Below, piece by piece: positions 53,361-64,000 of a stretch of DNA of 64,000 nt; within the stretch, counting starts at the first letter, position 1; each line of letters begins with the position of its first letter. The notes beneath the pieces were generated by a model, which was not told where the DNA came from, ran no database searches, and saw only the letters and a list, made by a program, of their open reading frames with translations. The DNA lies in the NCBI RefSeq assembly GCF_947494025.1, contig NZ_CANLTQ010000002.1:434001-498000 (forward strand), read 5' to 3'. Origin of the DNA: an uncultured Jannaschia sp. (GTDB taxonomy: Bacteria > Pseudomonadota > Alphaproteobacteria > Rhodobacterales > Rhodobacteraceae). The translations under genes and the position numbers were made by a program.

Positions 53361-53828
53361 TCAGGCGTCGGCGACCGCCGGAAGCGTGACCGATCCGCCT
53401 GCCTTTTCCACCGCCTCGACCGCACCTCGGGACGCGCCGGTGACGGTGATCGCGGCCTTCGCGGTCAACTCGCCCTTGCCAAGCAGACGGACGCCGTCAA
53501 GCTTGCGACGCACGACGCCGGCAGAGACGAGGCTGTCCTCGGTGATGTCGTTCGCGTCGAGGCGACCGTTGTCGATAAACTCCTGGATTTTCGACAGATT
53601 GACGACGGCGAAGGCCTTCCGGTTCGGCTTGTTGAAGCCGCGCTTCGGCAGACGTTGGTAAAGCGGCATCTGGCCGCCCTCGTAGCCATTAATGGCCACG
53701 CCGGAGCGGGACTTCTGGCCCTTGATGCCACGGCCGCCGGTCTTGCCGATGCCGGAGCCCGGGCCGCGGCCGACGCGCTTGCGCTTCCGCGCCGCACCGT
53801 CGTTGTCGCGCAGTTCGTGCAGTTTCAT
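53361..53828 (-). CDS. rplO: 50S ribosomal protein L15 (uL15)
   Basis: 155 residues. [41 protein letters not shown]-type N-terminus, with the [15 protein letters not shown] motif in the middle, defines L15. Unlike most genomes, the upstream neighbour is not rpmD but a metallo-hydrolase gene 189 nt away. A promoter-like sequence at 53915-53943 could supply it. Confidence 0.98.
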
Positions 53829-53914
53829 GATCGCTTCTCCTCTTGCCGGACAACCTCCCCGAAGCGATGCGGGAGGGACACGGCGCTATATTCACGTCCA
53901 TCGAGGACCCGGCG

Positions 53915-53943
53915 CGCATAGCGAGGCCGTACGACGAATGCAA
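53915..53943 (-). promoter_or_regulatory. putative promoter restarting the ribosomal cluster before rplO
   Basis: TTGCAT (53938-53943) and TATGCG (53915-53920) are spaced by exactly 17 nt on the minus strand, about 87 nt before the rplO ATG. It lies downstream of the inserted genes, where transcription of rplO-secY-adk would otherwise depend on read-through. Confidence 0.6.
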
Positions 53944-54017
53944 GTGAATCGAAAGGCTCGACGCTCCTACCGCCCGGGCCGGCAGGCTACGCCGCCCGGG
54001 CCGCGCATGTCTGACGA

Positions 54018-54803
54018 TCAGCCGAGCTCGTCAGGCTTGTACCAATCGTCGGTCCTCACTTCCGTCGCATCGCCGGCGAGCTGCGCGAACTCAGCCGGAT
54101 CCTGCGTGCCGCCGTCGCGGCCGTGGTAATGGTAGGGATAGACGTAGGTCGGCGTGAATTCCTGCACGGCAGACGCAGCCTGTTCGGCGTCCATTGTGAA
54201 AGGAAGGTTCATGCAAAGAAATGCCAAGTCGATATTCTCAAGCGCCCGCATCTCCGGAGTGTCTTCGGTGTCCCCCGAAATGTAGATACGAAAATCCTCG
54301 AAAGCGAGGACATAGCCGTTGTCACGGCCCTCCGGATGGAACTCAAGGCGCGCCTCGGTGGTGTTGTAAGCCGGAATGGCCTGAATTCCGACGTCGCTAA
54401 AGCTCGTCTCGTCACCGTTCGCCATCTCCTCGGCCCTGGCACGTAGATTTTCGGAAAGCATCCCATAGACTGCAGGGTTCGCGATGATGCGCGTGTCGTC
54501 TCCGATGAGGTCCGAAAGGGTCTCCTCATCGTAATGATCGCCGTGTTCGTGCGTGATCAGGATGAGGTCGGGCGGCGGCAGATCCTCATATTGCGCGGCG
54601 CCGCCCACCGGATCGGCATAGATCACGCCTGCCGGCGTTTCCATCACGAAAGAGGCGTGGCTTACCGGATGGACCGTGATCGGTCCGGCACCGGTTCGAA
54701 ACACGTCGGCGTCATGCGCCTCCGCCCGGGCGGAAAATGGCAGAACAGTTATTGTGCCGGTCGCGGCAACCGTTGCGAGAAAGGTACGTCTTGTCTGGGT
54801 CAT
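54018..54803 (-). CDS. Tat-exported metallo-beta-lactamase-fold hydrolase
   Basis: 261 residues. The N-terminus TQTRRTFLATVAATGTITVLP is a twin-arginine signal ending ARA near residue 27. The metal site THEHGDHYD (HxHxDH) is intact, followed by SGDTEDTPEM and a C-terminal YPYHYHGRDGG supplying further His. It resembles the UlaG/YtnP-like L-ascorbate-lactonase branch; the substrate is unknown. The start follows AGGAGGAACTAAC. It lies within the ribosomal cluster, between rpmD and rplO, in the operon's direction but with its own strong start. Confidence 0.87.
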   Translation of the reverse strand: MTQTRRTFLATVAATGTITVLPFSARAEAHDADVFRTGAGPITVHPVSHASFVMETPAGVIYADPVGGAAQYEDLPPPDLILITHEHGDHYDEETLSDLIGDDTRIIANPAVYGMLSENLRARAEEMANGDETSFSDVGIQAIPAYNTTEARLEFHPEGRDNGYVLAFEDFRIYISGDTEDTPEMRALENIDLAFLCMNLPFTMDAEQAASAVQEFTPTYVYPYHYHGRDGGTQDPAEFAQLAGDATEVRTDDWYKPDELG

Positions 54804-54976
54804 GTTAGTTCCTCCTGCGAAACACAGGATCTAGCCTCTCCTCTACACCTGACCACGTACTATGATCGTCAGCGGAAAAGGGGTGCCCACCGGACGAGCC
54901 CCTGACACGAAATGCTGAAAGATCGCTTCGATCGGCCGAATTTCGACCAGCTTTCCTTTCACACAACGCGTGGCCG

Positions 54977-55904
54977 GTGTCCGAAGGGACAAAAAAGGTG
55001 TCGAGCGTCCCGAAAACATCTTCGGGGACTTTGGCGAAGCCACGGGTCCGAAGGCTTCCCCTGCCGGTCGCGGATATCGCCCTGAACTTCTGCCGCGACC
55101 CGTTATGCGCGACCTGCGGCGTTCTGCCCGATCCGCTCAGGCGACCCGAAGGCATGCCACCACCGGCTTCAGGCGTGCTCCGGGGCGTGGTCGTCGGCAA
55201 GGCGCGCGAAGAACATTGCCAGTGTCCCGCGTGTGGAACGGCCTCCCGGGCGAAGAACAACCGTGCGGTCGTGGAGGAGCGTGAGCGGATTCGCCGCCTG
55301 CGCCAGACCGACTCGGCCAGACCCGCCTGCCGGATCGCGGGGTCTGCGAGCGAACAGTTCCCCGCCGACGACCATCCCGAACTCTACCAAAGCTTAGGAC
55401 GGACGAAGGTCGGTGATCCGCGGTGGCGGTGACTTCGACGGCGTTGAAGCGCATGCCTTCCGGGTTCCCTGTCGAGATCGTCGACAAAGAAGTGGCCTGC
55501 CGCCCGATCGGCGAGCCGATCGGTGCCCGGTTCCCGTATCCCTTCCCGGCCAAGAGCGGGCCGAATAAGCCCGTCCCGCTCCTGACGGACAGTCCCAAAC
55601 GTCAGCGCACGCCCGAAGGCACGTTCGATGCGCCTGTCGACGTCGCGCAGCGTCGACAGCTAGGTCCGCCGCTTCCGCTCGAACGGGCGGTTTGCTACGC
55701 GCTCGCAGATCCCCACGGACGCACCCGGAGCGGCATCGCCTCTCCGATCCATCCGTGCCGGCAAAACCCGTAAACATCCACCGCTTCCACCACGACGGGA
55801 CGGAGCCGGGTCGGGGCAAAGAAACGCCCGCAATGCGGATCGGGCTGGCTCACGGGCGGATCCATGAGCGGGATCTGTTGCGACATCGTCAGGATACGCA
55901 TTGA
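54977..55904 (+). pseudogene. degraded zinc-ribbon DDE-type transposase
   Basis: Three successive frames on the plus strand carry pieces of one protein. Frame one (to 55432) has ALNFCRDPLCATCGV, CQCPACGTASRAKNNRAVVEE and LGRTKVGDPRWR. Frame two (about 55423-55773) has CRPIGEPIGARFPYPF and SGPNKPVPLLTD. Frame three (to 55904) has KETPAMRIGLAHGRIHERDLL, the usual end of these transposases. The central catalytic region is missing and frames shift at least twice, so it cannot be active. The family is judged from memory. No clear terminal inverted repeats were found; 54804-54976 and 55905-55994 hold no other gene. Confidence 0.65.
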
Positions 55905-55906
55905 AA

Positions 55907-55930
55907 GACCCGCCGTTTCAGCGGCGGGTC
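55907..55930 (-). terminator. hairpin after rpmD at the insertion boundary
   Basis: GACCCGCCG (55907-55915) pairs perfectly with CGGCGGGTC (55922-55930), 9 bp around a 6-nt loop. On the minus strand it is followed by TTTCAA, a short U-tract. It lies 65 nt after the rpmD stop and may end the upstream ribosomal transcript. Confidence 0.6.
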
Positions 55931-55994
55931 GTCAACATTTGCCGTCAGGCACCGGCCCGGGGAACGGCCTTTCGTAACGGTATAAAGAAGCCGG

Positions 55995-56183
55995 TCAGCC
56001 TCGCTCTTCCACGATCTCCACCAGATGCGAGATTTTCGCGATCATTCCGCGAATGGAGGGCGTGTCCTCGAGCTCCCGCGTCTTGTGCATCTTGTTAAGC
56101 CCAAGGCCCACCAGGGTGGCGCGCTGCTTCTCGGGCCGACGGATCGGGCTCCCGATCTGTTTCACGACAATTGTCTTCGCCAT
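55995..56183 (-). CDS. rpmD: 50S ribosomal protein L30 (uL30)
   Basis: 62 residues. [30 protein letters not shown] is the L30 core. It follows rpsE by 3 nt. About 2.2 kb of inserted sequence separates it from rplO, its normal next neighbour. Confidence 0.98.
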
Positions 56184-56186
56184 GGA

Positions 56187-56771
56187 TCAGGCCTCCTCGG
56201 CTACTTGCGACGACTCGGCCGGCGCCTCGTCGCGCTTGGGCAGGATGTCGGCGACCTTCTTGCCGCGACGTTGCGCGACCGAACGCGGGCTCGCTTCCTT
56301 GGTCAAACCGTCGAGCGTTGCCCGGATCATGTTGTAGGGGTTCTGCGACCCGATGGACTTCGAGACCACGTCCTTGATGCCAAGCATCTCGAACACGGCG
56401 CGCATCGGACCACCGGCGATGATGCCGGTACCTTCCGGCGCTGTGCGCATCACGACGCGACCGGCGCCGTGGCGACCATTCATGTCGTGGTGCAGTGTAC
56501 GACCGTCGCGCAGCGGGACACGAATCATCTGACGCTTCGCCTGCTCGGTAGCCTTGCGGATGGCCTCGGGGACCTCCTTGGCCTTTCCCTTGCCGAAGCC
56601 GACGCGACCCTTCTGGTCGCCCACGACGACGAGCGCCGCAAAGCCGAAGCGCTTGCCGCCCTTTACCGTCTTCGAGACGCGATTGATCGCCACAAGGCGA
56701 TCGGCGAATTCCGGGGTTTCGTCGCGATCGCGCCCGCGGCCGCGGCCCCTGCTGTTGTCACGTTCCGCCAT
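56187..56771 (-). CDS. rpsE: 30S ribosomal protein S5 (uS5)
   Basis: 194 residues. The N-terminus has an Arg/Gly-rich run before the S5 dsRBD-like domain ([23 protein letters not shown]). [26 protein letters not shown] lies in the C-terminal domain. It contributes to decoding accuracy. It is 100 nt after rplR. Confidence 0.98.
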
Positions 56772-56871
56772 GCGGCACTCCTTTTCGGTTCCGGGCCGCG
56801 CCCGGATGGATACGATCCCAGGTGAGCCTCAGGCTCCCGGATCATCGAGGGGGCGCGAACGCCCCCTTCAC

Positions 56872-57231
56872 TCAGAATTTCAATCCGCCTTCGCGCGCCG
56901 CGTCGGCCAGCGCCTTGACCCTGCCGTGGAACAGGAAGCCACCGCGGTCGAAATACACGTCGTCGACGCCCGCCTTCTTCGCACGCTCCGCGATCGCGGC
57001 GCCGATCTTGCTGGCCGCCTCGACGTTGTTCTTGCCGACAAGCCCCAAATCCTTCTCGAGCGTCGAGGCCGAGGCGAGCGTACGGCCCGCCACGTCGTCG
57101 ATCACCTGAACCGAGATGTTCTTGTTGGAGCGATGCACCGAAAGACGCGGGCGTCCGGCCGCCATCCTGCGAAGTTTGTTCCGGACGCGCAGTCGGCGTT
57201 TCAGGAACAGATCCCGTTTGCTGTTTGCCAT
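56872..57231 (-). CDS. rplR: 50S ribosomal protein L18 (uL18)
   Basis: 119 residues. [28 protein letters not shown] and the C-terminal [25 protein letters not shown] are typical of this 5S rRNA-binding protein. The ATG reading MANSKRDLF is preceded closely by the rplF stop (11 nt). Confidence 0.98.
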
Positions 57232-57242
57232 CTGTCTGGTCC

Positions 57243-57776
57243 TTACTTCTTCTTGCCTTCCTTGCGGAAGATGAACTCGCCTTTGTAGCGGATACCTTTG
57301 CCCTTGTAGGGCTCCGGCGACCGCCATTCGCGGATGTTGGCCGCGACCTGACCGACGAGCTGCTGATCGATGCCCTCGACGACGATGTCGGTCTGCTTCG
57401 GGGCCGTCACCGTGACGCCCTCGGGCACCTCGAAGTTGACGTCGTGACTGTAGCCCAACGCGAGCTTCAGGGTGTTGCCCTGCATCTGCGCGCGGTAGCC
57501 GACGCCGGTGATCTCGAGCTCCTTCTTGAAGCCCGTGGTCACGCCGGTGACGAGGTTCTCGACCATCGTACGTGCCATGCCCCACTGCTGGCGCGCGCGT
57601 TTGGACTTGCCGCGCGGCGTGACCGTCACGGCATTATCCGCGATGGCAAGCGTCACATCGTCCGTGGCTGTGAAGTCGCGGGTACCCTTCGGCCCCTTGA
57701 TCGTAACCTTCTGACCGGAGATCGAGGCCTCCGCGCCCGAGGGCAGCGGCACGGGCCGTTTGCCGATACGAGACAT
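57243..57776 (-). CDS. rplF: 50S ribosomal protein L6 (uL6)
   Basis: 177 residues. [14 protein letters not shown] starts it; [20 protein letters not shown] and the C-terminal [24 protein letters not shown] are the conserved blocks of its two repeat domains. It sits near the sarcin-ricin loop. It is 11 nt after rpsH. Confidence 0.99.
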
Positions 57777-57787
57777 TGCAACCCTCC

Positions 57788-58180
57788 TCAGAATACGGTG
57801 CAGAGCACTTCGCCGCCGACATTGGCGGAGCGTGCTGCTGAATCGGACATGACGCCACGCGACGTGGAGACAATGGAGACGCCGAGGCCCTGACGAACAG
57901 ACGGCAGGTCGGCGACGGCCATGTAGACGCGGCGACCTGGCTTCGAGACGCGCTTCACCTCGCGGATGACCGGCGTGCCTTCGTAGTACTTCAGCGCGAT
58001 CTCAAGCGTCGGATGACCTTGGTGGTCGCTCGACGACTCGTAGCCGCGAATGTAGCCCTCGTCTGCCAGCACGTCGAGGACGTGCGCGCGCAGCTTGGAT
58101 GCGGGGGTGGAAACGGTGGTCTTGCCACGCATCTGCGCGTTGCGGATGCGCGTCAGCATATCACCGATAGGATCGTTCAT
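57788..58180 (-). CDS. rpsH: 30S ribosomal protein S8 (uS8)
   Basis: 130 residues. [21 protein letters not shown] at the N-terminus and the C-terminal [26 protein letters not shown] are diagnostic. It is a primary 16S rRNA binder and, in E. coli, a repressor of the spc operon. It is 14 nt after rpsN. Confidence 0.99.
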
Positions 58181-58194
58181 CTATCTGACCTCCC

Positions 58195-58500
58195 TTACCA
58201 GCTCGATTTGACCATGCCGGGGATCTTCCCCTGCGAGGCAAGATCGCGCAGCATGATGCGGCTGAGCTTGAGCTTCCGATAATAGGCACGGGGCCGTCCG
58301 GTGAGCTGGCAGCGGTTGTTGAGACGGGTCGGCGAGGAATTGCGCGGCAACTCGGCCAGCTTCAGCCGGGCCTTGAAGCGCTCTTCCACCGGCTTCGACT
58401 CGTCATTGGCGATGTCCTTCAGAGACGCGCGCTTGGCGGCATACTGCTTCACCAGCCGCTCGCGCTTCTTCTGGCGTTCGATCATGGATTCTTTGGCCAT
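58195..58500 (-). CDS. rpsN: 30S ribosomal protein S14 (uS14), zinc-independent
   Basis: 101 residues. This is the long, Cys-free form: the usual zinc CxxC pairs are absent, and [27 protein letters not shown] is the conserved C-terminus. It follows rplE by 10 nt. Confidence 0.98.
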
Positions 58501-58510
58501 GTCTATTTCC

Positions 58511-59074
58511 TCAGCTGTTGAACGGCATGTTGAAGTGCTTCAACAGCGCCTTGGCTTCCGCATCCGTCTCGGCAGTGGTGCAGATGATGATATCCATGCC
58601 CCAGACCTCATCGACCTTGTCAAAATTGATCTCGGGGAACACGATGTGCTCCTTGAGGCCCATAGCGTAGTTGCCGCGGCCGTCGAAGCTTTTGCCGTTC
58701 ACGCCGCGGAAGTCGCGGACGCGGGGCAGCGCGATCGTGATCAGACGGTCGAGGAACTCGTACATCCGGGCGCCGCGCAGCGTCACCTTCGTGCCGAGAG
58801 GCATGCCCTCACGGACACGGAAGCCGGCGATGGACTTTTTCGCCTTGGTGATAACGGCCTGCTGACCCGCGATGGTAGAGAGGTCGTCCTGCGCCGATTT
58901 CGCCTTCTTGGAGTCGCGAACGGCTTCTGCGCCAGCCCCGATGTTCAGGACGATCTTGTCCAAACGCGGGATCTGCATGACGTTCTTGTAGCCGAACTCT
59001 TCCTTCAGCGCGGGCTTGATCGTGTCCGCGTAGACGGATTTCAGACGCGGCGTGTAATTTGCCTGGTCGAGCAT
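58511..59074 (-). CDS. rplE: 50S ribosomal protein L5 (uL5)
   Basis: 187 residues. [43 protein letters not shown] and the C-terminal [26 protein letters not shown] are characteristic. It binds 5S rRNA and contacts the P-site tRNA. The ATG overlaps the rplX stop by one base. Confidence 0.99.
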
Positions 59075-59379
59075 CAGATCACGTCTCCCGTAGTCTTGGC
59101 AAAGCGCACCTTCTTGCCGTCATCGAAACGGAAACCGACGCGTGTGGCCTTCCCGTTGCCGTCGATGACGGCAAGGTTCGACAAGTCGATCGGCATCGCC
59201 TTCGGAATGCGGCCGCCCTGCGAGGTCTGGCTCTGGCGCGTATGCCGGATCGCCATATTGACGCCCTCGACGACGGCCTTGCCGGCTTTCGGATCCACGC
59301 TGACGATCTCGCCCTCGCGGCCCTGATCCTTGCCGGCCAGGACGCGGACCTTGTCGCCCTTGCGGAGTTTGGCAGCCAT
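59074..59379 (-). CDS. rplX: 50S ribosomal protein L24 (uL24)
   Basis: 101 residues. The KOW motif [22 protein letters not shown] is at the N-terminus. It starts 50S assembly on 23S rRNA. The ATG reading MAAKLRKG overlaps the rplN stop by one base (TGATG), so translation is coupled on both sides. Confidence 0.98.
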
Positions 59380-59747
59380 CACAGCACCTCCGGCGCGAGC
59401 GAGATGATCTTCATGAAATTCTTTGCACGCAGTTCGCGAACCACGGGCCCGAAGATACGGGTGCCCACCGGCTCGTTGTTGTTGTTGAGGATCACGGCGG
59501 CGTTCCGGTCGAAGCGGATCGCTGTGCCGTCGTCACGGCGCACTTCCTTGGCGGTGCGCACGACAACGGCCTTGCGGACGTCACCCTTCTTCACGCGGCC
59601 CCGCGGAATGGCCTCCTTCACCGACACCACGATGATGTCGCCGACGGAGGCGTATTTCCGTTTGGACCCGCCCAGAACCTTGATGCACTGAACACGGCGT
59701 GCGCCGCTGTTGTCAGCAACATCCAGGTTGGTTTGCATCTGGATCAT
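59379..59747 (-). CDS. rplN: 50S ribosomal protein L14 (uL14)
   Basis: 122 residues. [30 protein letters not shown] and [17 protein letters not shown] are highly conserved. The start MIQMQT allows an alternative three codons in. It is 73 nt after rpsQ. Confidence 0.99.
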
Positions 59748-59820
59748 TGGTTTCTCCCGACCTTTGGGGAGGCGATGCGTGCCTTGCGCCCCAGGGTTTC
59801 GATTTCGTCAGGTCAGCGCC

Positions 59821-60051
59821 TTATTCGGCGATGACCTCCCACCGCTTCGTCTTGGACTTCGGCGGACATTCCTGAATGCGGACCACGTCGCCGACCTTGA
59901 ATTGGTTGGTCTCGTCGTGGGCGCGGTACTTCTTCGACTTCCGGACCGTCTTGTGCAGGAGCGGGTGCTTGAAGCGGCGCTCGATCGAGACGGTGACGGT
60001 CTGGGCGTTCTGGTCGGAGGTGACGACGCCCTGCAGGATACGCTTCGGCAT
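59821..60051 (-). CDS. rpsQ: 30S ribosomal protein S17 (uS17)
   Basis: 76 residues. [21 protein letters not shown] and the central [21 protein letters not shown] are diagnostic, with [13 protein letters not shown] near the end. It lies 4 nt after rpmC. Confidence 0.99.
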
Positions 60052-60055
60052 GGGC

Positions 60056-60265
60056 TCAGGCCTCCGTGTTCGCGGCTTCGGCCGCCTTCTGGTTCAGAAT
60101 CGTGCTCACGCGGGCGACGTCGCGACGGACGGCACGGATGCGCGCGGTGTTCTCGAGCTGACTCGTCGCAGCCTGGAAGCGCAGATTGAACGCCTCTTTC
60201 TTGAGCTGCTTCAGCTGGTCCCGGAGCTCGTCCGGCGTCTTGTTTCTCAGATCGCTGGCGTTCAT
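60056..60265 (-). CDS. rpmC: 50S ribosomal protein L29 (uL29)
   Basis: 69 residues. [39 protein letters not shown] is the L29 helical hairpin. It lies near the nascent-chain exit. Its upstream neighbour is an oxygenase gene rather than rplP, and a promoter-like sequence lies 78 nt before its ATG. Confidence 0.98.
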
Positions 60266-60342
60266 CGCCGGCTCCTTTCTGCAACATCACCGGCAGGCCC
60301 CGGATGGGGTCACCTGATTCCCGGTGGAGGGTGAGTTCAGGG

Positions 60343-60371
60343 CCTATAGGAGGACCTGCGGGAAATGACAA
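60343..60371 (-). promoter_or_regulatory. sigma-70-like promoter upstream of rpmC
   Basis: On the minus strand TTGTCA (60366-60371) and TATAGG (60343-60348) are separated by exactly 17 nt. It lies in the 163-bp gap after the oxygenase gene and would drive rpmC-rpsQ-rplN and following genes independently. Confidence 0.7.
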
Positions 60372-60428
60372 CCGATACATCGAGGTCGAGCCGAGTTTCC
60401 TGTCGCACCCGCCGATGTGGTGACGCAT

Positions 60429-61049
60429 TCAGCGCCAAGCGTAGTTGAAACTGACGCTGATCCGCTCCTCCTCGGAGGTATTGAGCGGAACCTCGTGGCG
60501 CAGCCAGCTCTCCCACAGAAGAACCTCGCCGGACGACGGCCGGACATAGGCGAAACTACGCAGGTCGGACGGCGCGTCCTTCCGGCGCGGCGGCGCGGCC
60601 ATCATGAAAGCCAAGCGCGGATCCTCGAACCTGATCGCCGACGCGCCATCCGGCATCGTCACGTAGGTTGTGCCCGAGATCACCGAGTGCGGATGGAGAT
60701 GCCCCGAATGGCTTCCACCCTCCGGCAGAATGTTCACCCAGATGTCCTCGAGAACCAGACGCCCCTCCCCGAGATCGAAGGCAAGATCCTCGACAAAGGC
60801 GGCGACGTGCGCGTCTAGGGATTTTACCAGATCCGCAAAGATCGGAAAGCGCCATGCGAGGTCGGTCAACGAGGCATAGCTCGTATAGCCGGGGAACCCG
60901 TTTTCCTCGCACCACGCCTGCCCCGCCTCGTCATCCTCGGCGATCGAGAGGCAGGACGCCTCGAGCTCTCCTGCATCGACCGTCGGGGCGTGATCCGATA
61001 GCTGAGCGCGGTAAAGGCGCGTGGCGAAGAGGGAGGAGATGTCAGACAC
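60429..61049 (-). CDS. TIGR02466-type 2-oxoglutarate/Fe(II) oxygenase
   Basis: 206 residues with a GTG start reading (M)SDISSLFATRLY; AGGA lies about 8 nt before it. A further upstream GTG would add 16 Arg/Gly-rich residues. The double-stranded beta-helix fold is suggested by WVNILPEGGSHSGHLHPHSVISGTTYV, which carries the first metal His residues, and by LLWESWLRHEVPLN, carrying the distal His, with ERISVSFNYAWR as the 2-oxoglutarate-binding end. The substrate is not known. It sits inside the S10 operon between rplP and rpmC, on the same strand. Confidence 0.83.
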   Translation of the reverse strand: MSDISSLFATRLYRAQLSDHAPTVDAGELEASCLSIAEDDEAGQAWCEENGFPGYTSYASLTDLAWRFPIFADLVKSLDAHVAAFVEDLAFDLGEGRLVLEDIWVNILPEGGSHSGHLHPHSVISGTTYVTMPDGASAIRFEDPRLAFMMAAPPRRKDAPSDLRSFAYVRPSSGEVLLWESWLRHEVPLNTSEEERISVSFNYAWR

Positions 61050-61102
61050 GGCAGCGATCCTGTTGCTGCGTCCGCCGGACCTGCCTCGGGCGGACACGAG
61101 AA

Positions 61103-61128
61103 GGCCCCCGCCGTTCCCGGCAGGGGCC
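61103..61128 (-). terminator. stable hairpin between rplP and the oxygenase gene
   Basis: GGCCCC (61103-61108) pairs with GGGGCC (61123-61128); inside, after one mismatch, further G-C pairs leave a small loop. On the minus strand it is followed by TTCTCG, only a weak U-tract. It may reduce transcription into the oxygenase gene. Confidence 0.6.
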
Positions 61129-61159
61129 GATCAATTGGCGATTTGGGCCGCCGCTTGCG

Positions 61160-61573
61160 TCACCAATCCTCGCGGACCACGGTGCGCGTCTTGATCGGCA
61201 GCTTCATCGCCGCGAGCCGAAGCGCTTCACGCGCGATATCCTCGCTCACACCGTCGATTTCGAACATGATGCGGCCGGGCTTCACCTTGCAGGCCCAGTA
61301 ATCGACGGAGCCCTTACCTTTACCCATCCGCACCTCGGTCGGCTTGGAGGTGACCGGCAAATCCGGAAAGATCCGGATCCAGACGCGGCCCTGACGCTTC
61401 ATGTGTCGCGTCATCGCTCGTCGGGCGGCCTCGATCTGGCGCGCGGTAACGCGCTCGGGCTGCGTGGCCTTGAGGCCATACGTGCCGAAGTTCAGGTCGG
61501 ACCCGCCCTTCGCCTCGCCGTGAATGCGGCCTTTGAACTGCTTGCGGAACTTCGTCCGTTTCGGCTGTAGCAT
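61160..61573 (-). CDS. rplP: 50S ribosomal protein L16 (uL16)
   Basis: 137 residues. [19 protein letters not shown] begins it; [30 protein letters not shown]-type and [25 protein letters not shown] are conserved. The Arg in the RMGKGKG loop region corresponds to the L16 residue hydroxylated by the ribosomal oxygenase YcfD/RoxA in E. coli. It follows rpsC by 12 nt and is followed by a hairpin and the oxygenase gene. Confidence 0.98.
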
Positions 61574-61585
61574 CGTGCTTCCTCC

Positions 61586-62320
61586 TTACCGGCGACCGCG
61601 CGGGCGGTCGTCGCGACGCCCGCCGCCGGCACCACGGGGGGACGGGCCATCCTGCAATTCCTGCGCCTTGCGATCACGGGCAGAGGGATCGTGGTCCATG
61701 ATCTCGCCTTTGAAGATCCAGACCTTGATCCCGATGATCCCGTACGGCGTGGTCGCCTCCGAATGCGCGTAATCGATATCCGCGCGCAGCGTGTGCAGCG
61801 GCACCCGCCCCTCGCGGTACCACTCGGTCCGCGCGATTTCCGCACCGCCGAGACGGCCGGCCAGATTCACTCGGATGCCGAGCGCGCCCATGCGCATGGC
61901 ATTCTGCACCGACCGCTTCATTGCACGGCGGAACGAGACCCGACGCTCCAGCTGCTGGGCGATGCTCTCGCCCACAAGCTGCGCGTCGAGTTCCGGCTTG
62001 CGAACCTCGACAATGTTGAGATGCAGCTCACTGTCCGTCATCGCGGCGAGCTTCTTGCGAAGAACCTCGATGTCGGCGCCCTTTTTGCCAATGATGACGC
62101 CCGGACGCGCGGTGTGGATCGTGACGCGGCACTTCTTGTGCGGACGCTCGATCACGACGCGGCTGACACCGGCCTGCTTGCATTCCTTCTCGATGAACTC
62201 CCGCATGCGCAGGTCCTCGAGCAGGAGGTTTCCGTAGTCCTTTGTGTCCGCGTACCAGCGGCTGTCCCAGGTGCGATTGACCTGAAGCCGCATGCCGATC
62301 GGATTGACCTTGTTGCCCAT
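61586..62320 (-). CDS. rpsC: 30S ribosomal protein S3 (uS3)
   Basis: 244 residues. [22 protein letters not shown], the KH domain with [18 protein letters not shown], and [22 protein letters not shown] are all present. The C-terminus ends in an Arg/Gly-rich tail. It lines the mRNA entry channel. The ATG overlaps the rplV stop by one base. Confidence 0.99.
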
Positions 62321-62700
62321 CAGGCTTGCTCCTCGACTTGCCGCACCTTGATCGTGATCTCCGAGAACGGCTTGATGATCCGTCCGAACCGGCCACGAGC
62401 CCGCGGGCGACCGCGCTTCATGGTCAGGTTCTTGCCGACCCAGGCCTCGGCGACGACCAGCTCGTCGACGTCCAGGTTATGGTTGTTTTCGGCATTCGCG
62501 ATCGCCGATTGCAAGCACTTGCGCACGTCGATCGCGATCCGCTTCTTGGAGAAGGTCAGGTCGCTCAGGGCGCGTTCGACCTTCTTGCCGCGGATCATCG
62601 CGGCGACAAGGTTCAGCTTCTGCGGGCTGGTGCGCAGCGACCGCAGCTTCGCCATGGCTTCGTTCTCAGCCACGCGGCGGGGATTCTTTTCCTTGCCCAT
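62320..62700 (-). CDS. rplV: 50S ribosomal protein L22 (uL22)
   Basis: 126 residues. [44 protein letters not shown] and the exit-tunnel hairpin [17 protein letters not shown] are intact; this loop is where macrolide-resistance changes occur. It is 3 nt after rpsS. Confidence 0.99.
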
Positions 62701-62703
62701 GAC

Positions 62704-62982
62704 TTACTTCCTCTTGGCTTTCTTGTCGGCCGCATGCCCGTAATAGGTGCGCGTCGGGGAATACTCGCCGAACTTCTGGCCGATCATGTCCTCGGACACG
62801 TTGACCGGAATATGCTTCTGGCCGTTGTAGACGCCGAAGGTGAGGCCGACGAATTGCGGCAGGATGGTGGAGCGGCGTGACCAAATCTTGATCACGTCGT
62901 TGCGGCCCGATTCACGAGCGGCTTCGGCCTTCTTCAGGACGAACGCGTCCACAAAGGGCCCTTTCCAGACGGAACGGCTCAT
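62704..62982 (-). CDS. rpsS: 30S ribosomal protein S19 (uS19)
   Basis: 92 residues. [35 protein letters not shown] and [23 protein letters not shown] are the conserved blocks. It starts 1 nt after the rplB stop. Confidence 0.99.
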
Positions 62983-62983
62983 G

Positions 62984-63826
62984 TCAGCGGCCTTTCTTCT
63001 TGGCGTGACGCGACCGGACGATCAGCCGGCTGGACGCCTTGTTCGTGTTGCGGGTGCGGGCACCCTTCGTCGGCTTGCCCCACGGCGTGACCGGATGACG
63101 TCCGCCCGAGGTGCGACCTTCGCCGCCACCATGCGGGTGATCGATCGGGTTCATGACGACGCCACGCACGCTCGGGCGAATGCCCTTGTGACGGTTGCGG
63201 CCGGCCTTGCCGATGTTCTGGTTCGAGTTGTCCGGGTTCGAGACCGCGCCGACCGTTGCCATGCATTCCTGTCGCACAAGCCGCAGCTCGCCGGAGGAAA
63301 GACGGATCTGCGCGTAACCGCCGTCGCGACCGACGAACTGGGCGTAGGTTCCAGCCGCACGCGCGATCTGGCCCCCCTTGCCGGGTTTCAACTCGATGTT
63401 GTGGACAATCGTGCCGATCGGCATTCCCTGAAACGGCATCGCGTTGCCGGGCTTGATGTCCGCACGGGCCGAGGCGACGACCCGGTCGCCCACGGCGAGC
63501 CGCTGCGGCGCGAGGATATACGCCTGCTCGCCGTCCGTGTAGCGGATCAGCGCGATGAACGCGGTCCTGTTCGGATCGTACTCGATCCGTTCCACGTTCG
63601 CCTGGACGTCGAGCTTGTTACGTTTGAAATCGACGATCCGATAGAGCCGCTTTGCTCCGCCGCCCTTGCGGCGCATCGTGATCCGTCCGGTGTTGTTCCG
63701 GCCGCCGTGTTTGGTCAGCCCCTCCACGAGGGACTTGACCGGCCGGCCTTTCCACAGCTCCGAACGGTCGATCAGAACCAGCCCCCGCTGGCCCGGCGTC
63801 GTCGGCTTGTACGACTTGAGTGCCAT
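62984..63826 (-). CDS. rplB: 50S ribosomal protein L2 (uL2)
   Basis: 280 residues. The N-terminal OB-like and C-terminal SH3-like domains hold [19 protein letters not shown] and the catalytic-region [25 protein letters not shown] with its conserved His. It is near the peptidyl-transferase centre. rplW lies 110 nt upstream. Confidence 0.99.
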
Positions 63827-63903
63827 GTTACCTGTCTTCCGTTTGCAGTGTCGGCGGGATGTTCCCGCCCGAGGTCAAAGGGCCCCGAAGGTCCCCGTCG
63901 AAA

Positions 63904-63927
63904 CGGCCGGCCCACACGGGCCGACCG
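63904..63927 (-). terminator. GC-rich hairpin between rplW and rplB
   Basis: Positions 63904-63913 pair with 63918-63927 with one mismatch, around a 4-nt loop, and TTTCG follows on the minus strand. It lies within an operon, so partial attenuation is more likely than full termination. Confidence 0.4.
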
Positions 63928-63936
63928 GCAATGGGC

Positions 63937-64000
63937 TCAAAGCCCCGTAGTCACGTCGATCGTGTTGCCCTCTTCAAGCGTCACGTACGCCTTCTTCACG
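63937..64000 (-). CDS. rplW: 50S ribosomal protein L23 (uL23), C-terminal part
   Basis: The last 20 codons are present, reading KKAYVTLEEGNTIDVTTGL before TGA, the normal end of alphaproteobacterial L23. The gene runs off the right edge of the window. It precedes rplB as in the standard S10 operon. Confidence 0.92.
   Translation of the reverse strand, partial: VKKAYVTLEEGNTIDVTTGL

Follow-up and report, generated by a model that had tools for sequence, protein, structure and literature searches.

A TIGR02466 oxygenase-like gene retained between the S10 and spc ribosomal protein genes of Rhodobacteraceae, with a possible link to translation

Introduction

Oxygenases that act on the machinery of protein synthesis have been described in bacteria and in eukaryotes. 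Namely, YcfD is described as hydroxylating Arg81 of ribosomal protein L16 in Escherichia coli (PMC4295552), and OGFOD1 is presented as a 2-oxoglutarate (2OG) oxygenase that hydroxylates a proline of ribosomal protein uS12 (PMC4396695). For a bacterial prolyl hydroxylase, the metal ligands are given as H124, D126 and H183 (PMC6235002).

Here we analyse ox, our working name for an oxygenase-like gene inside the gap between rplP (encoding L16) and rpmC (encoding L29) in a 64,000-nt stretch of an uncultured Jannaschia sp. contig, referred to in its entirety as the window. We describe the family to which ox belongs, its position, its retention at this junction across the host family (Rhodobacteraceae), the transcription-like signals around it, its invariant signature and its predicted fold. 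We tentatively favour a reading, to which we give somewhat less than an even chance, in which ox is a metalloenzyme of the prolyl hydroxylase (PHD) type that oxidises a component of the translation apparatus. Such an enzyme would be expected to bind a metal, use 2OG, be catalytically active and find its substrate in translation.

Results

On the minus strand of the window, the interval 60266-61159 fills exactly the space between the stop codon of rplP (from 61160) and the start of rpmC (60265). Its sole gene is ox, on the same strand as both flanks, just where a preliminary description of this DNA had placed it. The membership in TIGR02466 proposed there was upheld over the full length of the protein: ox scores 276.2 bits against this model (cut-off 62.5), matching model positions 2-200 of 201. 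It scores 117.3 bits against PF13759 (cut-off 27), its sole significant Pfam domain; the Pfam scans gave in addition a weak PF13640 match and no PF08007, in agreement with the suggested non-JmjC subfamily. The nearest named relative, a protein of an uncultured Jannaschia, is 88% identical. The sequence AGGA lies upstream of the GTG start. A mechanical open reading frame reaches 61097 and is longer than the gene; ATG stands at the exact position of the GTG in 79 of 80 named relatives, and 37 of the 80 carry an in-frame stop at most 16 codons upstream of it, which together argue that the frame to 61097 is not the gene.

To place this arrangement in context, we surveyed 198 genomes of the host family, one per genus; counts over genera are not independent events. 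A PF13759 match was present in 133 genomes and reached 110 bits, the cut-off we chose for calling an ortholog, in 117. For rplP, 150 of 177 genomes were taken in, which left 14 of the 117 ortholog genomes unpaired. Of the 103 that were paired, 92 have ox no more than 8 kb from rplP, downstream of it in 91 cases, facing the same way in 54 and the other way in 38. The remaining 11 divide into 7 with ox beside rpmC, on the cluster's other side, and 4 whose fetched stretch contains no member of a set of ten S10/spc ribosomal proteins.

We then compared 149 fetched rplP regions and the window (150 regions), calling a junction closed when rplP and rpmC lie within 400 bases. The gap held ox in 82 regions (49 on the same strand, 33 on the opposite strand) and was open without a full ox in 7, while 36 junctions were closed. 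In another 10 regions ox was near rplP and rpmC could not be seen on that strand, and 15 showed neither of the two genes beside rplP; in one of the 25 regions without rpmC in view on the rplP strand (G009), ox sits on the other side of rplP. Full-length ox was found in 82 of the 89 open gaps, a strongly positive outcome for the survey of rplP-rpmC gene order that the preliminary description had called for. Of the other seven open gaps, one (L264) retains a truncated, N-terminal piece of ox; its genome, G184, has no listed ortholog, and the remnant points to decay in place. A set of 80 named loci was retrieved by searching with ox and is hence biased towards it; in all 71 that show both flanks, the gap contains ox (42 same-strand and 29 opposite-strand copies). 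The family survey and these ox-biased loci rule out an assembly or local oddity.

Other junctions of the ribosomal cluster served as controls. Of the 17 junctions that lie between rplB and secY, 14 never exceeded 400 bases where both genes were in view and rplB-rpsS did so once; the two that were often open were rplP-rpmC (89 of 125) and rpmD-rplO (48 of 79). Survey and named loci together gave 160 open rplP-rpmC gaps, of which 154 contain ox or, in one case, its remnant, and the next gene family occurs in 9. By contrast, the commonest inhabitant of 84 open rpmD-rplO gaps occurs in 16, and there is no constant resident. Two holes of one cluster thus behave differently, one with a fixed resident amid changing company and the other without, and on these grounds we rejected the view that ox is one exchangeable occupant among many. 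The window itself carries the second split: rpmD (55995-56183) and rplO (53361-53828) lie about 2.2 kb apart (53829-55994), and a gene in between (54018-54803) has a Tat-like signal start and the motif HEHGDH and looks metallo-beta-lactamase-like by eye.

The history of the locus was traced on FastTree trees only, with change counts that cannot separate gain from loss. Orientation of ox changed at least 15 times on the ox tree, clearly below the 26.3 obtained with shuffled labels, and at least 23 times on the ribosomal tree, hardly below the shuffled 26.0. Presence of ox accounts for at least 24 changes on the ribosomal tree versus 39.8 with shuffled labels. Distances between ox proteins correlate with those between ribosomal proteins (r 0.46, a value reached in 0 of 500 permutations); one half of the ribosomal protein set correlates with the other at 0.62. 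This fits mostly vertical descent with losses; some horizontal transfer in addition is possible. An origin as a phage or plasmid gene was rejected: matches, all below 60% identity, occurred in 19 of 50,697 phage and 4 of 72,556 plasmid records, and the best plasmid match (59%) is a Sphingomonas ortholog. One homolog, in Synechococcus phage S-CAM3 (L431:105-701), lies between psbD and glutaredoxin genes.

Signals around ox suggest where transcription units begin and end. Downstream of rplP stands a terminator-like hairpin, and 77 nt before rpmC a promoter-like site, TTGTCA-17-TATAGG, with 9 of 12 matches (Table 1). A strict general scan of 56000-64000 listed neither (0 promoters; 7 terminators versus 6.9 expected by shuffling), and the two signals are convincing because of their counterparts in relatives. 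Expected numbers here come from first-order resampling. Of the 82 genomes whose gap contains ox, 67 have the hairpin after rplP (about 1.6 expected), and it recurs both where ox is on the same strand (40/49; 1.1 expected) and where it is on the opposite one (27/33; 0.5 expected). Closed junctions have it too, in 16 of 36 cases (0.3 expected). The motif TTGNCN-N16-18-TATA occurs within 220 nt before rpmC in 44 of the 82 genomes (0.2 expected), in 5 of the 7 open gaps that lack a full ox and in 5 of the 36 junctions that are closed. Before ox itself, the same pattern was found in 0 of 49 same-strand and 1 of 33 opposite-strand genomes. Both signals had been noted in the preliminary description, and it is chiefly comparison that confirms them. 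Its picture of a regulated unit embedded in the operon found no support, as the terminator-like and promoter-like signals split the cluster and 33 of 82 ox copies face the opposite way. Judged by these motifs, the S10 and spc sides are likely to be separate transcription units in many family members, with ox in between, and ox is probably no operon member in the ordinary sense.

Table 1 Coordinates of ox, its flanking genes and nearby signals in the window
Feature	Position	Strand	Remarks
ox	60429..61049	minus	GTG start, 206 sense codons; TIGR02466 / PF13759; start backed by relatives; 103 family orthologs aligned
Codons of the invariant H-x-H motif (H116, L117, H118)	60693..60701	minus	Coordinates worked out by hand from the gene start
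rplP (L16), last gene of the S10 side	61160..61573	minus	PF00252, 183.7 bits
rpmC (L29), first gene of the spc side	60056..60265	minus	PF00831, 93 bits
Terminator-like hairpin after rplP	61103..61128	minus	GGCCCCTGCCG-GGAA-CGGCGGGGGCC at 61128-61103, then tail TTCTCGTG
-35-like TTGTCA before rpmC	60366..60371	minus	Counterpart of the motif in 44/82 genomes with ox in the gap
-10-like TATAGG before rpmC	60343..60348	minus	Part of TTGTCA-17-TATAGG

Outside the host family, ox keeps different company. None of the ten S10/spc proteins lies within about 5 kb of ox in 20 orthologs from other families of the class; against these, proximity to ribosomal genes is seen in the host family only. A second translation context of ox is the neighbourhood of pth. 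In Sphingomonas parapaucimobilis (L370:3423-6156), ox overlaps pth by 4 bases and ychF follows two genes on; pth-TIGR02466 neighbourhoods were found there and at L348, L384 and L382, with ychF after them in two. Genome G228, which we take for a sphingomonad because its Pth is 76% and its YchF 84-86% identical to those of S. parapaucimobilis, has the order pth-ox-ychF. Orthologs of at least 214 bits are present in 17 of 79 genomes from its family; ox lies close downstream of pth on the same strand in three of these (G228, G578 and G554) and not in the other 14. At L389 (G571:C122:25178-26465), pth has a distant TIGR02466 paralog (86 bits) some 170 bases away, encoded on the opposite strand. Conserved neighbours were otherwise discarded as a clue to function: among 30 neighbour proteins outside the host family, with genes called by a home-made choice of open reading frames, the company is miscellaneous and no family recurs bar one methyltransferase, which is upstream of ox in L349 and L351 and falls below the cut-off of every NCBIfam model listed.

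These observations bear on the main rival to a function in translation, to which we assign a nearly equal likelihood: passive retention in a safe gap. Here ox would have a useful function unrelated to ribosomes and would have entered once, into a permissive gap between two essential transcription units that hardly ever rearrange; it would stay because relocation is rare, other gap genes being lost for want of selection. A terminator-like hairpin before the gap and a promoter-like site after it would make the gap safe, the orientation of ox varies, and outside the host family the gene is mostly away from translation genes. Open gaps are occupied almost completely, and of the 43 regions where rpmC is visible and the site lacks a full ox, 36 are closed; this looks as if ox had opened the gap, and on the latter count ox is possibly the founder of the first rplP-rpmC hole. 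Against passive retention, the contents of the other often-open gap, rpmD-rplO, turn over without any gene staying fixed there. Moreover, the locus is restless, with its many changes of orientation, yet only 4 of 103 orthologs lie off the S10/spc proteins in the stretch fetched, and the pth context is a separate one.

The predicted structure describes ox as a double-stranded-beta-helix protein of PHD shape. An AlphaFold2 model (predicted local distance difference test score, pLDDT, 75) has the double-stranded beta-helix fold, and Foldseek and VIA matched it to PHD2 and other 2OG oxygenases. Its own relatives aside, the nearest folds are mostly protein prolyl hydroxylases, including the bacterial one that hydroxylates EF-Tu. 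The model has the overall fold of PHD-type prolyl hydroxylases and lacks their HxD...H site.

Instead of the HxD...H metal site anticipated in the preliminary description, all 66 distinct motif regions (repeats dropped) carry the signature HxH...H...R (H116-x-H118...H184...R195 in A1 numbering; add 1 for the initiator). The HxD/E...H triad is absent, with histidine at both H-x-H places in 66 of 66. Profile alignment aligns segment 171-203 with PF13640 proteins (probability 79); with seven PF13640 HxD proteins it sets their HxD on H118-x-120 rather than on H116-x-118, a low-confidence and ambiguous result that, as far as it is informative, goes against H116-x-H118 as the HxD register. Neither register provides a carboxylate in ox. 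The sole motif with an acidic residue two after the second histidine belongs to the cyanophage P-SSM2 homolog (L366:198-788), which reads HDHTD.

The invariant HxH, and the acidic residue two after H118 in just 1 of 66 motifs, are what one would expect if ox were no 2OG hydroxylase and its histidine-rich site served another chemistry, such as 2OG-independent thiol oxidation, or sensed O2 or a metal. We consider this improbable: R195, the basic residue after the distal histidine on the last strand, at the usual 2OG-binding place, is kept in 66 of 66 motif regions, and the predicted fold is PHD-like.

Finally, we asked whether L16 itself offers a link. The family L16 carries an RMGKGKG stretch, the arginine of which we take to be the counterpart of Arg81 of E. 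coli L16, in 147 of 150 sequences; the three without it are L246 and L265, which lack ox, and L287, which has it. YcfD-type PF08007 had no match in 24 of 24 host-family members searched and none in the window's own genome, and ox does not match it either, so a YcfD-like JmjC enzyme is ruled out as the identity of ox. Genomes G001, G003 and G004 have neither PF08007 nor an ox ortholog of at least 110 bits, which indicates that loss of YcfD needs no replacement. Covariation with ribosomal residues was set aside as a clue to the substrate. Its best candidate, L16 Ser25, occurs in 94% of genomes with ox and 36% of those without among the 150 family regions; it was top among those listed of 22 columns in ten ribosomal proteins that could be tested with independent pairs, and was not significant (4.6 pairs in one direction against 0.3 in the opposite one; median p 0.125). 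That ox is an L16- or L29-specific hydroxylase replacing YcfD/RoxA, as the missing PF08007 and the conserved RMGKGKG might suggest, is the least probable of the readings weighed here, given a stretch kept with and without ox, a fold and family other than those of YcfD, non-significant covariation and the dispensability of a replacement; its L16-specific form is possible but unsupported.

Discussion

A function in translation would fit the following course of events. Early in the host family, ox would have inserted between rplP and rpmC, into the space between S10 and spc sides that seem to be separate transcription units. It would mostly have been held at this junction since, while its neighbours changed and its own orientation flipped. 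Its function would be the O2-dependent oxidation, probably hydroxylation, of a ribosomal protein or of a factor such as EF-Tu. A role of ox in protein synthesis is plausible but unproven.

A more specific proposal, which we regard as unlikely, joins these elements: ox would be a natural PHD fold with three histidines, the engineered counterpart of which is dead, acting as an O2-gated modifier of translation and kept between the S10 and spc units by a tie to ribosome synthesis, through dozens of genera and many inversions.

If ox does modify a component of translation, a large bacterial family carries an unrecognised modification of the ribosome or of a factor, governed by O2 and 2OG. Should three histidines hold the metal of ox, the family presents a PHD-shaped enzyme without the carboxylate that defines the superfamily. 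Even if the gap is a mere harbour, the paired junctions, one with a fixed resident and one with none, offer a clean case for why genes stay put.

The closest described relatives of ox are the TIGR02466 / PF13759 crystal structures 3bvc (Roseovarius nubinhibens ISM_01780) and 2rg4 (Oceanicola granulosus), both deposited as uncharacterised; our searches of the open literature turned up no paper on their function. In Roseovarius nubinhibens ISM, too, the gene occupies the rplP-rpmC gap, in the opposite orientation (L089). In fold, ox resembles the Pseudomonas putida prolyl hydroxylase (4j25, 4iw3) and human PHD2, at 12-18% identity; these use HxD...H, whereas ox has HxH...H. By analogy, this PHD-like fold gives a hint to function, as its bacterial prolyl hydroxylase acts on a translation factor. 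Like YcfD/RoxA, ox would be a bacterial oxygenase acting on the ribosome, but those are JmjC (PF08007) enzymes and ox belongs to another domain family. OGFOD1, which has an HxD site, is eukaryotic, whereas ox is bacterial.
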